Assembly (NCBI GenBank): GCA_016182655.1
Contig: JACPGB010000020.1
Coordinates: forward strand, 1 to 37,574
Origin: Deltaproteobacteria bacterium
GTDB lineage: Bacteria > Desulfobacterota > GWC2-55-46
Direction: 5' to 3'
DNA length: 37,574 bases
Shown: in pieces, positions 17,136 through 33,682 of the stretch
How positions within the stretch are numbered: the stretch's first letter is position 1
Layout of the letters: every line of letters begins with the position of its first letter
Translations under genes and position numbers: made by a program
Notes under the pieces: generated by a model
The model's database searches: none
Seen by the model: the letters and a program-made list of their open reading frames with translations, nothing else
Told to the model about the DNA's origin: nothing

Positions 17136-17816
17136 ATGAGCCAGCCAGCGCACACAGCCGCACCGCATCCCGACATACCTATCACCGTAGGGACCGAGCT
17201 ACTCCTCGAACTCCTCGACTTGAAGCTCAAGATGCGCGGAGAGCTCGTAGGCGGCGAGCACCGGAGATACCTCATAGTGAAGCTCCCCGGAGAGGACCTC
17301 GGCTTCGGCGTCGAGTCGCTCAAGGGGTCCAGGATGATAATCCGCTATCTCTTCAAGGGCTCGATCTACGGGTTCAAGTCGGAGGTCGTGAACACCCTCG
17401 CCTCGCCTTCGAGGCTCGCCTTCGTCGCCTATCCCGAGAAGGTCGAGGAGTTCAAGGTGCGGAACACCCCGAGGTACGAGTGCATACTGCCGGGATCGGC
17501 CGAGCTCGGCAGCGAGGCAATCGAGATCGTCGTCATCGACATAAGCCTCAAGGGGTGCAGGGCGATAATAAATACGGGAGAGCTCCGGGACAGGGAAAAG
17601 GCCCTCGGCGCGCTCGACGTAGGCAAGGAGCTCGTCGTCTCCGTGCAGCTCCCTGGCGCCGAGGAGAGGCTCCACTTCCATTGCGAGGTAAAGAACCATT
17701 CAAGGGACAGCGAGCGGGTGGTCGTTGGCCTGCTGTTCAACGAGTCCGACAACAGGTCCGAAGGCAGGCTCTCCTCGTTCCTGAACCTTATCTCAGCGGT
17801 AAAGCCGAGGGAGTGA
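17136..17816 (+). CDS. PilZ-domain c-di-GMP-binding protein, YcgR-like layout
   Basis: A 226-residue protein. Residues 15-105 form an N-terminal beta domain like the YcgR flagellar-brake N-terminus (EVVNTLASPSRLAFVAYP just before the linker). The PilZ domain begins at KVRNTPRYECILP, where R109 and R113 give the RxxxR motif, followed by D135-x-S137-x-x-G140 (DISLKG). Both nucleotide-binding motifs are intact, so binding of cyclic di-GMP is expected. The output is probably motility or surface behaviour. AAGGAG precedes the ATG. It is likely co-transcribed with the lipoprotein gene upstream. Confidence 0.88.
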   Translation: MSQPAHTAAPHPDIPITVGTELLLELLDLKLKMRGELVGGEHRRYLIVKLPGEDLGFGVESLKGSRMIIRYLFKGSIYGFKSEVVNTLASPSRLAFVAYPEKVEEFKVRNTPRYECILPGSAELGSEAIEIVVIDISLKGCRAIINTGELRDREKALGALDVGKELVVSVQLPGAEERLHFHCEVKNHSRDSERVVVGLLFNESDNRSEGRLSSFLNLISAVKPRE

Positions 17817-17870
17817 GTTGAATCTACCAAACCTCCCCTCCCTCGATGGGAGGGGATAGAGGGGAGGGTG

Positions 17871-17960
17871 ACTGCTCGGCGCAGGGCCAGAGTATCCGGA
17901 GACGACTATAATCTAAACACCCCGCTATCGTTGTATATGAACTTTGCCCGTCCGGCAAGG
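17871..17960 (+). repeat. Fold-back element unit 1 at 17.9 kb
   Basis: Begins ACTGCTCGGCGCAGGGCCAG and ends ACTTTGCCCGTCCGGCAAGG. The centre differs from the following units. It abuts unit 2 directly. Confidence 0.75.
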
Positions 17961-18050
17961 ACTGCTCGGCGCAGGGCCAAAGTCGGTACGGAGTCTCCGG
18001 GTAAATCGATTCTCCTGCCGTTCGATACCGAATTGCCCGCCCGGCCAGGG
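17961..18050 (+). repeat. Fold-back element unit 2 at 17.9 kb
   Basis: Begins ACTGCTCGGCGCAGGGCCAA and ends AATTGCCCGCCCGGCCAGGG. The centre contains CGGAGTCTCCG, a small hairpin. Confidence 0.75.
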
Positions 18051-18079
18051 CTTCACCCCCACCCCGTGTCCGAGGTCAA

Positions 18080-18168
18080 GGCGCTCGGTGCGCGGCCAAA
18101 GTTTTACCGGAGCCTCCGGGGTAGATCGAATCCCTGCCGTTCATTACGGATTTGCCCGGCCGGCCAGG
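18080..18168 (+). repeat. Fold-back element unit 3 at 18.1 kb
   Basis: Begins GGCGCTCGGTGCGCGGCCAA and ends TTTGCCCGGCCGGCCAGG. The centre holds CCGGAGCCTCCGG, a counterpart of the hairpin in unit 2 with changed bases. It is separated from unit 2 by 29 bp. Confidence 0.75.
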
Positions 18169-18346
18169 CCCCCCTCACCCTCCGCCCTCTCCCACAAGGG
18201 GAGAGGGGACCATAAAACCCTGCCTTTGTACTACCTTCCGATAGTCCCCCGGACGGCCCCCCACCCTCCAAAGGCACTGCGGTGTTCAAAAACCGCACAC
18301 TTTGATTAATGCAGTATTAAAAAAAGCACGCCTGCACTGAATCCCG

Positions 18347-18373
18347 TAAAGCCCTTTTTTGCCTTGCCGATAT
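18347..18373 (+). promoter_or_regulatory. Sigma28 (FliA)-type promoter
   Basis: TAAA (18347-18350), 15 bp, then GCCGATAT (18366-18373). The consensus is TAAA-N15-GCCGATAA, so the -35 core and spacing are exact and the -10 matches 7 of 8. It lies 52 bp before the start codon of the 59-residue basic protein. Confidence 0.6.
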
Positions 18374-18425
18374 ATAAACTAAGTACAGGGATGTAGAGGC
18401 AAGCAATTCACAGGGAGGTGACCGT

Positions 18426-18605
18426 ATGCCGTACTTACAGCACCATCTGAACAGCCTGCACATATTCTGCAGGCTCCGCGCACTGGGGTTCAGCAAGCGG
18501 ACGGCGATAAGGCTATCAAGGGTCTGGGAGTTCCTCGTCCACCCGTTCGTCTACCTCCGGGTCCAGAGAATACCGGCAAAGGTCGTCGTCAGACGGAGGC
18601 TTTGA
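18426..18605 (+). CDS. Small basic protein, 59 residues, not recognised
   Basis: The frame encodes 59 residues beginning MPYLQHHLNSLHIF and ending VVVRRRL. It is strongly basic, with about 11 Arg and 2 Lys, and contains a likely amphipathic segment (CRLRALGFSKRTAIRLSRVW) and a hydrophobic one (EFLVHPFVYLRV). Coding is supported by an excellent ribosome-binding site, GGGAGGTGA, just before the ATG, by codon usage like the neighbours (ATA, AGG) and by the sigma28-type promoter upstream. It ends 24 bp before the convergent uvrB stop. I do not recognise the family; membrane or nucleic-acid association would both fit. Confidence 0.65.
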   Translation: MPYLQHHLNSLHIFCRLRALGFSKRTAIRLSRVWEFLVHPFVYLRVQRIPAKVVVRRRL

Positions 18606-18629
18606 TAATGTGCGCGAAAACGGAGGAGG

Positions 18630-20651
18630 TCAGCCGAGCTTAAGCTCCTCATCCTCGAGCTCTTTTATCCTGTCCCTGAGCTCGGCGGCCTTCTCGAACT
18701 CAAGACCCTTGGCCGCCTTCTCCATCTCCTTCCTGAGCGACTTCAAAAGATTCGGCAACTCGTGCGGCGGCACATACTCGGCCGTCTTCTCCGCCGCGAC
18801 CGGCCCCTTGACCGTATAGTAATCCCCCTCGTAGATCGAGCTCAGTATGTCCTTTATACTGCTTTTGATCGTCTCCGGAGTTATCCCGTTCGCCTCGTTA
18901 TAGCCCGCCTGTATGAGCCTCCTCCTCCCGGTCTCGTCCATGGCCGCGCGCATCGAGTCCGTGACCCTGTCCGCGTACATGATGACCTTGCCGTTCACGT
19001 TCCTCGCGGCCCTGCCGCAGGTCTGTATGAGCGAGCGGCCCGAGCGGAGAAACCCTTCCTTGTCGGCGTCCAGTATGGCGACGAGAGAGACCTCGGGAAT
19101 GTCCAGCCCCTCGCGGAGGAGGTTTATGCCCACGAGGATATCGAACTCGCCCAATCTTAAGTCCCTGAGTATCTCGATCCTCTCGAGCGTCTCTATGTCC
19201 GAATGGAGGTACTTTACCTTTAGCCCGGCCTCGGCGTAGTGCTGTGTAAGGTCCTCTGCCATCCGCTTCGTAAGGGTCGTTACAAGCACCCTCTCGCCGT
19301 TCCTTACGCGCTTCCTTATCTCAACGAGGAGGTCGTCCACCTGGTGGGCCGCGCCCCTCACCTCTATCTCCGGGTCCATTAGTCCCGTGGGCCTTATTAT
19401 CTGCTCCACGACTCGGCCTCCGGCGACCGAGAACTCGTAGGGGCCGGGGGTGGCAGAGACATGGACAGTCTGGTTGATCTTCCGCGCGAACTCGTCGAAT
19501 TTAAGCGGCCTGTTGTCGAGGGCCGACGGCAGCCTGAAGCCGTACTCGATGAGCGTTTCCTTCCTCGACCTGTCGCCGTGGTACATACCGTTCAGCTGGG
19601 GGACCGTTATGTGGCTCTCGTCTATGAAGAGGACAAAATCCTCGGGGAAGTAGTCTATGAGCGTATATGGCGGCTCGCCCGGGAGCCTTCCGGTGATGTG
19701 GCGCGAGTAGTTCTCTATGCCGGGACAGTAGCCCATCTCCTCCATGAACTCGAGGTCGAACTGGGTCCTCTGCTCGAGCCTCTGGGCCTCGAGAAGCTTG
19801 TTCTGCGTCTTCAGGAATACGAGCCTCTCGCGTAGCTCCTCCCTTATCGCCTTTATGGCGCGGTGGAGGTTGTCCCTCGTCGTAACATGGTGGCTCGCCG
19901 GGTGGATGAGGGCGCGCTCCATCTTCCTTACGGGCTTCCCCCTCATCGGGTCTATCTCGGTTATCGCTTCTACCGTATCTCCGAAGAACTCTATCCGTAC
20001 GGCGGTCTCTGCCTCGTAGGCCGGGAATATGTCGACGACGTCGCCCCTCACCCTGAAGGTGCCCCTGTGAAAGTCGTAGTCGTTCCTTACGTACTGCATC
20101 TCTATGAGGCGGTTGAGGAGCGCGGACCTCTCCGTCTCCATGCCGCGCTCTACAAAGACCTGCATCTGGCCGTAGTCTTCGGGCGAGCCTATGCCGTATA
20201 TGCAGGAGACGGATGCGACGATAATGGAGTCCCTTCTCGTAAGGAGGGAGTGCGTCGCCGAGTGGCGGAGCTTGTCTATCTCGTCGTTAATTGAAGCGTC
20301 CTTCTCTATGTACATGTCGGTCGTCGGCACATACGCCTCTGGCTGATAGTAGTCGTAGTACGAGACGAAGTACTCCACGGCATTCTCGGGGAAGAGGTCC
20401 TTGAACTCGGCGTAAAGCTGGGCCGCCAAGGTCTTGTTCGGCGCGATGACGAGCGCGGGTCTGCCGGTCTCCTCGATGACCTTGGCCATGGTAAAGGTCT
20501 TGCCCGAGCCCGTGACCCCGAGGAGTATCTGGTGTGGATACCCTTTCCCGAGCCCCTCGCCGAGCGCCTTTATCGCCCTGGGTTGGTCGCCCTTTGGGAC
20601 GAAGTCCGTCCTTATCCTGAATGGTGTAGACATATCCTTATAAAATACCAT
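18630..20651 (-). CDS. uvrB: UvrABC system protein B
   Basis: A 673-residue protein of standard length. The Walker A is [14 protein letters not shown], the beta-hairpin region is [19 protein letters not shown], the DEAD-type box is LFIDESH, and helicase motifs V-VI are in [13 protein letters not shown] and QTCGRAARN. The C-terminal UVR motif ([17 protein letters not shown]) recruits UvrC. It loads on damaged DNA after UvrA. Two ATGs are possible: 20651 (SD-like AGGA five bases upstream, inside the repeat end) and 20633 (MSTPFRIRT, more like other UvrB proteins but with AAGGA only one base away). I keep 20651. Fold-back units lie directly upstream. Confidence 0.97.
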
Positions 20652-20656
20652 GAAAT

Positions 20657-20745
20657 CCTGGCCGGATGGGCAAAATTCAAATCAAGCGGCTATAGTACTC
20701 GAACTCCTAAGAGGTATCCAACGGCTTTGGCCGTGCGCCGAGCGC
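20657..20745 (-). repeat. Fold-back element unit 1 at 20.7 kb
   Basis: Ends CCTGGCCGGATGGGCAAA and TTTGGCCGTGCGCCGAGCG. The centre has CTC-CTAA-GAG. It is directly followed by unit 2. Its left end lies 6 bp from the uvrB start codon. Confidence 0.78.
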
Positions 20746-20831
20746 CCTGGCCGGATGGGCAAAATTCAAATCGAGTGCTATAGTAAACGAACTCCTAAGG
20801 TATCCAACGGTTTTGGCCGTGCGCCAAGCAC
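20746..20831 (-). repeat. Fold-back element unit 2 at 20.7 kb
   Basis: Ends CCTGGCCGGATGGGCAAA and TTTGGCCGTGCGCCAAGCA. The centre is closely similar to unit 1 with small deletions. It occupies the uvrB-ileS divergent region together with unit 1. Confidence 0.78.
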
Positions 20832-20907
20832 CAAAAAGCTGTTTTAATTTCGCCTCCCTTGTGTTATTAGAATACATCCTGATAAATACGAGAAAGAGGC
20901 CAAAAAA

Positions 20908-31834: not shown

Positions 31835-33622
31835 TCATGTGACGGAGATGACCTCCTCGTAGGTGGTGACGCCCTGCAGCATCTTCCTTATGGCGGACTC
31901 GCGGAGCATCGACATGCCTTCGGCGCGCGCGGCCTTTTGTATCACGGTAGAGTCGGAGGTCTTGGCGACTATCGCCTTTATCTTGTCTGAAAAGTCCAAA
32001 ATCTCGAATACGCCCGTCCTGCCCTTGTAGCCCGTCCCCCTGCACTCGGTGCACCCCTCGCCGTAATAGACCTTGTACTCTTTCTCCTTGAGCCGGAGGT
32101 ACTCGACCTCCTCGTGTTTCAGCACCCTCGTCTTCCTGCAGTTCGAGCAGATCTTTCTTACGAGCCTCTGGGCTATTATGCCGACGACCGTGGAATTTAT
32201 GAGAAAGCCCGGTATCCCCAGGTCCATGAGCCTCGTTACGGATGATGGCGCGTCGTTCGTGTGGAGCGTGGAAAATACGAGGTGGCCGGTGAGCGCGGCC
32301 TGCACGGCGTTGTCGGCCGTCTCCTTGTCCCTTATCTCGCCGACCATGATGATGTCGGGGTCCTGGCGGAGTATCGTGCGAAGGCTCCCTGCGAAGTCGA
32401 CGCCTATCTGGGGCTGTACCCCTACCTGGTTGAACTCCTCGACTATCATCTCTATCGGGTCCTCTATCGTGACTATGTTAACTTCAGGCGACGAGAGGGA
32501 TTTGAGCGCCGAATAGAGCGTCGTCGTCTTGCCGGAGCCCGTGGGGCCCGTCACAAGCACGATGCCGTAAGTCCTTTTTATGAAAGAGTTGAAGACCTCG
32601 AGCTCCGCGGGTAAAAACCCGAGACCGCTCAAGTCCTGAAAGAGGACCTCGGGGTCGAATATCCTTATGACGACCTTCTCGCCGAACGCCGTCGGGAGGG
32701 TTGATACCCTGAGCTCTATTTCCCTCCCCCTGAACTCGGTCTTGATGCGCCCGTCCTGCGGCTTTCTCTTCTCCGCAATATCCATCCTCGACAACATCTT
32801 TATGCGCGAGAGTATCGAGGGGTGGACGACCTTCGGGACCGTGTGTATGTAGTGGAGGACGCCGTCTATGCGGAGGCGGACATGCGAGCGCTCCCTCTTG
32901 GGCTCTATGTGTATGTCGCTCGCCCGCTGGTCGTAGGCGTAGTGGAGGAGGTACTCTACGGCGTTTACGATGTGCTGGTCGGTGGCGTCTAATTCTACCG
33001 CGCCCTTCAGCCTCACGTACTGTTCGAGGTTGCCCAGCTCGGTCGAGTGCGAGTACTCTTTTTCAGCCGCGCCGACCGAGTACCTGAAGCCGTAGAACTC
33101 GCGGACGATCTTCAGTATATCGGACTTGGAGCTCAGGACGAGGTCGACCTTCATCTTCCTCGTGGCCTTAAGGCTCTCCACGGCCTCGAGGTTGAACGGG
33201 TCCGCGACGGCGAGCGTCACGACGCGGTCCTTCTCCTCTATCGGGACTACGAGGTATCTCTGCGCGAACGGTCTCGGGATGTGCGAGGTGACGATGTCGA
33301 GGTTGAGCTTAAGGGGGTCTATCTTCCTGTACGGGAGGCCGACCTCCTCGGCGATGACCTCGGTTATCATGTCCTCGGTGAGGGTCTTTCCGGGGGCGGT
33401 TGCGAGCGGCAGGCTGAGCGAGGCGATGACCTCGGCGGGCGAGACGAATTCGGACGAGGTCTGCCTTTTGGCGGAATACATCGTTTCCTGGGACTTCTTG
33501 ATCCGCGCCCTCTGACCTTCGCCGCGGATAAGTATCTCCCTCTCTTCGGTCTCGCCGATGAGCTTCTTTTTTTTGAGGAGCGCGGTTACGAACTCGATTG
33601 TTAGGGACTTCTTTTCCGTCAT
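31835..33622 (-). CDS. GspE/PilB-family secretion or pilus assembly ATPase
   Basis: A 595-residue ATPase. The N-terminal 170 residues hold a T2SSE-N (MshEN-like) domain, of which the second half is clear (ITEVIAEEVGLPYRKIDP and ALP-type QRYLVVPIEE). The core has Walker A GPTGSGKTTT (about 359-367), the Asp box, His box and Walker B DPDIIMVGEIRD (about 421-432). A tetracysteine zinc site (Cys492, 495, 524, 527) is typical of GspE and PilB. It powers pseudopilus or type IV pilus assembly. ATG 33622 is chosen; the frame is open to a TTG at 33655. No other secretion or pilus genes are adjacent. Confidence 0.88.
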   Translation of the reverse strand: MTEKKSLTIEFVTALLKKKKLIGETEEREILIRGEGQRARIKKSQETMYSAKRQTSSEFVSPAEVIASLSLPLATAPGKTLTEDMITEVIAEEVGLPYRKIDPLKLNLDIVTSHIPRPFAQRYLVVPIEEKDRVVTLAVADPFNLEAVESLKATRKMKVDLVLSSKSDILKIVREFYGFRYSVGAAEKEYSHSTELGNLEQYVRLKGAVELDATDQHIVNAVEYLLHYAYDQRASDIHIEPKRERSHVRLRIDGVLHYIHTVPKVVHPSILSRIKMLSRMDIAEKRKPQDGRIKTEFRGREIELRVSTLPTAFGEKVVIRIFDPEVLFQDLSGLGFLPAELEVFNSFIKRTYGIVLVTGPTGSGKTTTLYSALKSLSSPEVNIVTIEDPIEMIVEEFNQVGVQPQIGVDFAGSLRTILRQDPDIIMVGEIRDKETADNAVQAALTGHLVFSTLHTNDAPSSVTRLMDLGIPGFLINSTVVGIIAQRLVRKICSNCRKTRVLKHEEVEYLRLKEKEYKVYYGEGCTECRGTGYKGRTGVFEILDFSDKIKAIVAKTSDSTVIQKAARAEGMSMLRESAIRKMLQGVTTYEEVISVT

Positions 33623-33682
33623 TTTACGGTTTTCTTCGCCCCCGGAGAAATTCAAAACGCGTTAAGCCATCTGTAGCGGCTG

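Follow-up and report, generated by a model that had tools for sequence, protein, structure and literature searches.

The window analysed here, a contiguous stretch of 37,574 nucleotides (37.6 kb), carries on its forward strand a gene of 59 codons, with the ATG at 18426 and the stop codon ending at 18605. It encodes a basic protein of an unnamed family, with 59 aa, a pI of about 12 and a charge of about +11. Upstream, positions 17136-17816 of the forward strand encode a YcgR-type PilZ protein (PF07238 and PF12945), in agreement with the initial annotation, which had placed a PilZ gene before the repeat region; downstream, uvrB is convergent, at 18630-20651 of the reverse strand. Both neighbours are found at other loci, where, by eye, a PilZ-like ORF adjoins the small gene in L013 and L019, and uvrB adjoins it in L013, L015, L016 and L030. 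The PilZ gene lies about 530 bp upstream, behind repeats, so that co-transcription of the two genes is unlikely. Repeats flank the small gene together with uvrB, at 17868-18170 (90-119 nt apart) and at 20657-20832 (86-89 nt apart).

The ORF had been proposed as an unannotated gene, and comparative sequence analysis upholds it as a real gene under purifying selection, because homologues are present in all five genomes of the genus and in 23 of the 59 relatives' genomes overall, a count that takes in G000, and dN/dS ranges from 0.12 to 0.57 within the genus (six pairs of four genomes). The reading frame is kept in the relatives. Twelve residues are invariant across 19 aligned members, picked from 25 matches, and the family core reads [QC]HxxN[SP]LHx[FY]CRLRxxGxxKxxA...[WY]E. 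No Pfam, NCBIfam or PHROGs family scored over its cut-off for the small protein, and the literature search found no paper on such a small protein family. Two AlphaFold2 runs predicted three to four helices at pLDDT 65 and 68, a low to moderate confidence, and a Foldseek search with the first model gave nothing significant (best E 3.9). A PDB sequence search gave no hit over the cut-off, the best having an E of 0.011 over 20 residues; COMMD4 chains appeared there at E 0.011-0.02, matching 20 residues of one helix, and were judged to be chance.

A sigma28 (FliA)-type promoter lies in front of the gene, at 18347-18373 of the forward strand, with TAAA at 18347-18350, a spacer of 15 nt and GCCGATAT at 18366-18373. 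By direct reading, TAAA-N15-GCCGATAT matches 11 of the 12 bases of the consensus TAAA-N15-GCCGATAA. Sites with at least 11 of 12 bases and a spacer of 15 or 16 nt occur once on the forward and once on the reverse strand of the window, where first-order Markov resampling gives an expectation of 0.07 per strand. On the reverse strand, TAAA-N15-GCCGAAAA (33728 to 33702) also has 11 of 12 consensus bases and lies about 50-80 nt before an ORF at 31835-33655, named by eye as a GspE/PilB-like ATPase. Genome-wide, the pattern TAAA-N12..17-GCCGATA gave 22 matches versus 9 for its reversed control, so the box alone is weak evidence and, as the bare pattern is not rare, the argument for the promoter is carried by conservation.

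The alignment of the window with L009, L011, L030 and L031, covering two genera, presented TGCCGATA, TACAnGGAnGT and ACAnGGAGGT as invariant. The promoter spacer measures 15 nt in the window and, in most relatives, 16 nt, and the flagellar promoters of the own genome use both lengths, 15 nt for flagellin and 16 nt for flgM; sigma28 boxes with spacers of 15-16 nt precede flgM, flagellin and some genes named by eye. L008 and L010 keep the promoter as well; in them, a 139-bp insertion with TACAGG duplicates on either side separates it from the leader and its CsrA-type sites. This insertion is a MITE-like element that has inverted ends and duplicates its TACAGG target; copies similar to it were observed elsewhere in the own genome (L040 and L061/L074 belong to the same observation). 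The sigma28-type promoter with exact spacing, as claimed in the initial annotation, is confirmed as a sequence element ahead of the 59-aa gene by the direct reading and by its conservation upstream of the homologues.

Between promoter and gene, GGGAGGTGA is found at 18413-18421, upstream of the ATG at 18426, and the leader holds two CsrA-type sites that the initial annotation overlooked. The first (GTACAGGGATGT / GUACAGGGAUGU, 18383-18394, forward strand) matches 12 of 12 positions of the SELEX consensus RUACARGGAUGU and is the sole such match on either strand of the window; ACA and GGA are described as fully conserved in this consensus in excerpts of PMC7652899. The second (UCAC-AGGGAG-GUGA, 18408-18421, forward strand) lies over the Shine-Dalgarno sequence. 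The GGA motifs of the two sites are 22 nt apart here and 16-22 nt apart across seven loci, inside the range of 10-63 nt that CsrA can bridge according to the same excerpts (PMC7652899).

Both sites fit GGA hexaloops closed by 3-4 pairs, the first as a putative hairpin UAC-AGGGAU-GUA at 18384-18395. In the hairpin alignment, a standard pair is present in 95.9% of the cells, with one compensatory pair, in L030/L031, and 33 of 500 shuffles reach the same; covariation was rejected as proof of the hairpins, since the data are too few and consist of a single event in one lineage that 33 of the 500 shuffles equal. The minimum-energy fold predicted for the leader (18380-18440) contains hairpin 2; in place of hairpin 1, it has site 1 paired with codons 2-4, through UAAGUAC in the leader and GUACUUA in the coding sequence, a pairing that would be in competition with CsrA-type site 1.

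Two ACANGGANGT sites within 75 nt of the start were found in seven of the 75 chromosomal loci, in two genera, and the other 68 do not have even one such site at that distance; among the chromosomal loci examined, the other uvrB-linked homologues do not have the dual CsrA-type sites. The promoter and both sites recur together upstream of the homologue in the seven loci. The combined pattern GCCGATAN{5,30}TACANGGANGT presented matches in seven of 15 genomes, and its reversed control presented 0 in the same 15. The match is the small gene alone in G000, G001, G002, G013 and G020, and falls elsewhere than the small gene in G005 and G018; a looser promoter/site pattern added two further matches in the own genome. 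An Rfam search of 17700-18800 gave no match at E up to 1. A flagellin leader, L069 (C39:80468 onward), contains CGGC-AAGGAT-GCCG and AAGGAGG, a possible CsrA pair.

All the trans-acting genes that such a leader would call for are present in the genome. FliA, whose absence would have spoken against the promoter, is encoded (TIGR02479, 268 bits, over the cut-off), and a cluster flgM-flgN-flgK-flgL-csrA-fliW was found, in which FlgM, FlgK, CsrA and FliW were named by Pfam, flgL was matched as Flagellin_N/C and flgN was named by position only. The genome also encodes flagellin. By its translation, CsrA retains R44 and N55, residues that are tied to RNA binding (PMC7652899) and, in Geobacter, to FliW binding (PMC13407953). 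Flagellin is present in 34 of 38 family-positive versus 209 of 357 family-negative genomes (p = 9e-5), the four positive genomes with no flagellin match being G048, G100, G117 and G140. The motility link conceived in the initial annotation is supported only indirectly, by the promoter box shared with flgM and flagellin and by the flagellin enrichment, but it is not exclusive, given those four genomes and the phages that carry the family.

At E up to 0.001, a profile built from 19 members detected the family in 39 of the 395 phylum genomes; a broader profile detected it in 38 at E up to 1e-5, and a single genome can have as many as five copies. Searches of phage GenBank records and of PLSDB plasmids, each with one query, gave no match. 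The sigma54 consensus used for site scoring is TGGCAYRNNNNTTGCW. In the 200 nt upstream, sites with at least 11 of 12 bases occur in 16 of 75 chromosomal loci for sigma54 and in 10 of 75 for sigma28; other, mostly coding parts of these loci give expectations of 0.45 and 0.17. When the upstream stretches themselves were resampled with a Markov model (first 46 loci, 180 nt), the expectation was 0.09 versus 10 observed for sigma54 and 0.03 versus 9 observed for sigma28. A control stretch 800-980 nt upstream in the 46-locus set contained three sigma54 sites with at least 11 of 12 bases, and the reverse strand of the same region contained one. The promoter hypothesis arose on the first loci; the 29 counted loci fetched later include six with sigma54 and one with sigma28 sites at the same threshold.

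For these analyses, L027, L028 and L029 (degraded or chance) were excluded from the alignment and the promoter counts, L017, L021 and L026 from alignment A1 only, and L136, with 22 nt upstream, from the counts. L126 and L157 are a duplicate entry for one locus, neither having a promoter match, and the 75 loci are therefore 74 distinct ones; the members of the pairs L129/L146, L019/L020 and L030/L031 are closely related to each other, not independent; and in L008 and L010 the insertion pushes the promoter past the 200 nt counted.

Because rpoN is predicted to drive fliA in Geobacter (excerpts of PMC2725144), the sigma54 and sigma28 promoters of the family members could, by analogy, belong to one cascade. 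The sigma54-type copies L019, L020 and L022 present a palindrome, TGTAAAGN3-4CTTTACA, which is possibly the site of a dedicated activator. In G005, G013 and G020 it occurs only at the small gene, so that it gives no support to a shared flagellar activator there, and a single regulator for all sigma54 copies was rejected on this restriction.

The domain is also encoded at 51 loci in IMG/VR viral contigs, some of which are host or provirus DNA, since L198 is nearly identical to the chromosomal copy L128. An alternative is that the small gene came from a phage and was domesticated, its product affecting the envelope or phage growth, and that the flagellar link is a convenient promoter only. Besides the number of viral loci, this explanation draws on copies by lysis genes, L223 coming after a transglycosylase-type endolysin and L234 before a holin, and on fusions in which the domain forms the N-terminus of phage proteins with a membrane anchor (L205, L221, L223, L237 and L241, named by eye). 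However, peptidoglycan hydrolases make up 8 of 71 neighbours of the phage copies versus 2 of 68 farther genes (p = 0.10), a count in which the viral loci were reduced from 51 to 37 and each domain match among the eight was taken as one protein. With this enrichment not significant and other phage copies adjoining primase or structural genes, lysis was rejected as the main role of the family. Moreover, sigma54 or sigma28 promoters mark many chromosomal lineages and almost no phage copies (one of 50 for sigma54 and none of 50 for sigma28, near-duplicate contigs included; p = 8e-6 for chromosome versus phage copies with either promoter type), and we regard the phage explanation as unlikely.

In L152, L156 and L157, too, the domain stands at the N-terminal end, there of PAP2 proteins (PF14378, E 1.8e-16 for L152); these fusions to a PAP2-type membrane phosphatase fall within one taxonomic family. 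From the fusions to PAP2 and to membrane-anchored phage proteins, a role in the cytoplasm near the membrane is deduced, and it is proposed, with low confidence, that the product could be a basic cytoplasmic adaptor of three helices that works near the inner membrane.

Also unlikely, and slightly less probable than the phage explanation, is that the leader serves chiefly as a sponge for CsrA, in the form of an RNA that FliA drives and that titrates CsrA while flagella are built, with the protein being secondary. Two putative hexaloop sites at a spacing of 16-22 nt would suit such an RNA, and the Campylobacter flaA leader, with two GGA hexaloops 21 nt apart, is reported in excerpts of PMC4894983 as both target and antagonist of CsrA; but the protein is under purifying selection and conserved far past the range of the leader, and a single dimer site per RNA demands an abundant transcript. 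It is very improbable that the boxes are chance, with a housekeeping promoter transcribing the gene and the second site being merely a strong Shine-Dalgarno sequence, since a sigma28 box that by itself is not rare in the genome (22 versus 9) and the GGAGG within ACAGGGAGGT are set against boxes invariant in two genera, a first site that is not a ribosome site and matches 12 of 12, and a family-wide promoter enrichment.

The reading that we favour, and consider probable, is that the small gene is a late (class-3-like) gene of the flagellar regulon, governed by a two-lock switch of FliA and CsrA/FliW. As the first lock, FlgM would have to be exported before FliA could transcribe the small gene. 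As the second, a CsrA dimer would bridge the two GGA hexaloops of the leader of about 45 nt and hide the Shine-Dalgarno sequence, until flagellin leaving the cytoplasm frees FliW, which would take CsrA away and allow translation. With these two locks, the small protein would therefore appear at the same time as flagellin, after completion of the hook.

More tentatively, the family may be an undescribed domain of about 40 residues, common to phages and to Desulfobacterota-type bacteria (with one member from a Nitrospirae record), which chromosomes have set under sigma54 or sigma28 in many lineages and here also under the CsrA-FliW flagellin checkpoint. It could then be a common small effector that ties the completion of the flagellum to some process on the membrane side which phages exploit as well; we hold this wider proposal to be possible, though on balance doubtful. 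The domain common to phages and chromosomes offers a handle on where phages and motility regulation meet. If the favoured two-lock reading is true, the control that the CsrA-FliW checkpoint is known to exert on flagellin extends to a small non-flagellin protein in uncultured Deltaproteobacteria, and an unnamed protein family under flagellar-class regulation becomes testable.

Among known systems, the hag/flaA-type leader is the closest, as two ACA/GGA sites, one of them over the Shine-Dalgarno sequence, are found here, with csrA and fliW in the genome. The Campylobacter jejuni flaA leader, of the CsrA-FliW network, has two GGA hexaloops about 21 nt apart, to which the two putative hexaloops here correspond, and CsrA and FliW are encoded in this genome too; unlike flaA, the downstream gene here encodes an unrelated 59-aa protein, not flagellin, and is known from sequence alone. 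For the hag leader of Bacillus subtilis, excerpts of PMC7652899 describe a pair of CsrA sites, one of which covers the Shine-Dalgarno sequence, and CsrA acts with FliW; the arrangement here is alike, whereas the phylum and the gene product are other ones. The family also resembles the sigma54-to-sigma28 cascade of Geobacter sulfurreducens in its use of alternative sigma factors, since its members carry one promoter or the other; there, the rpoN-to-fliA hierarchy is a predicted one, and the likeness of the family to it is one of promoter type.
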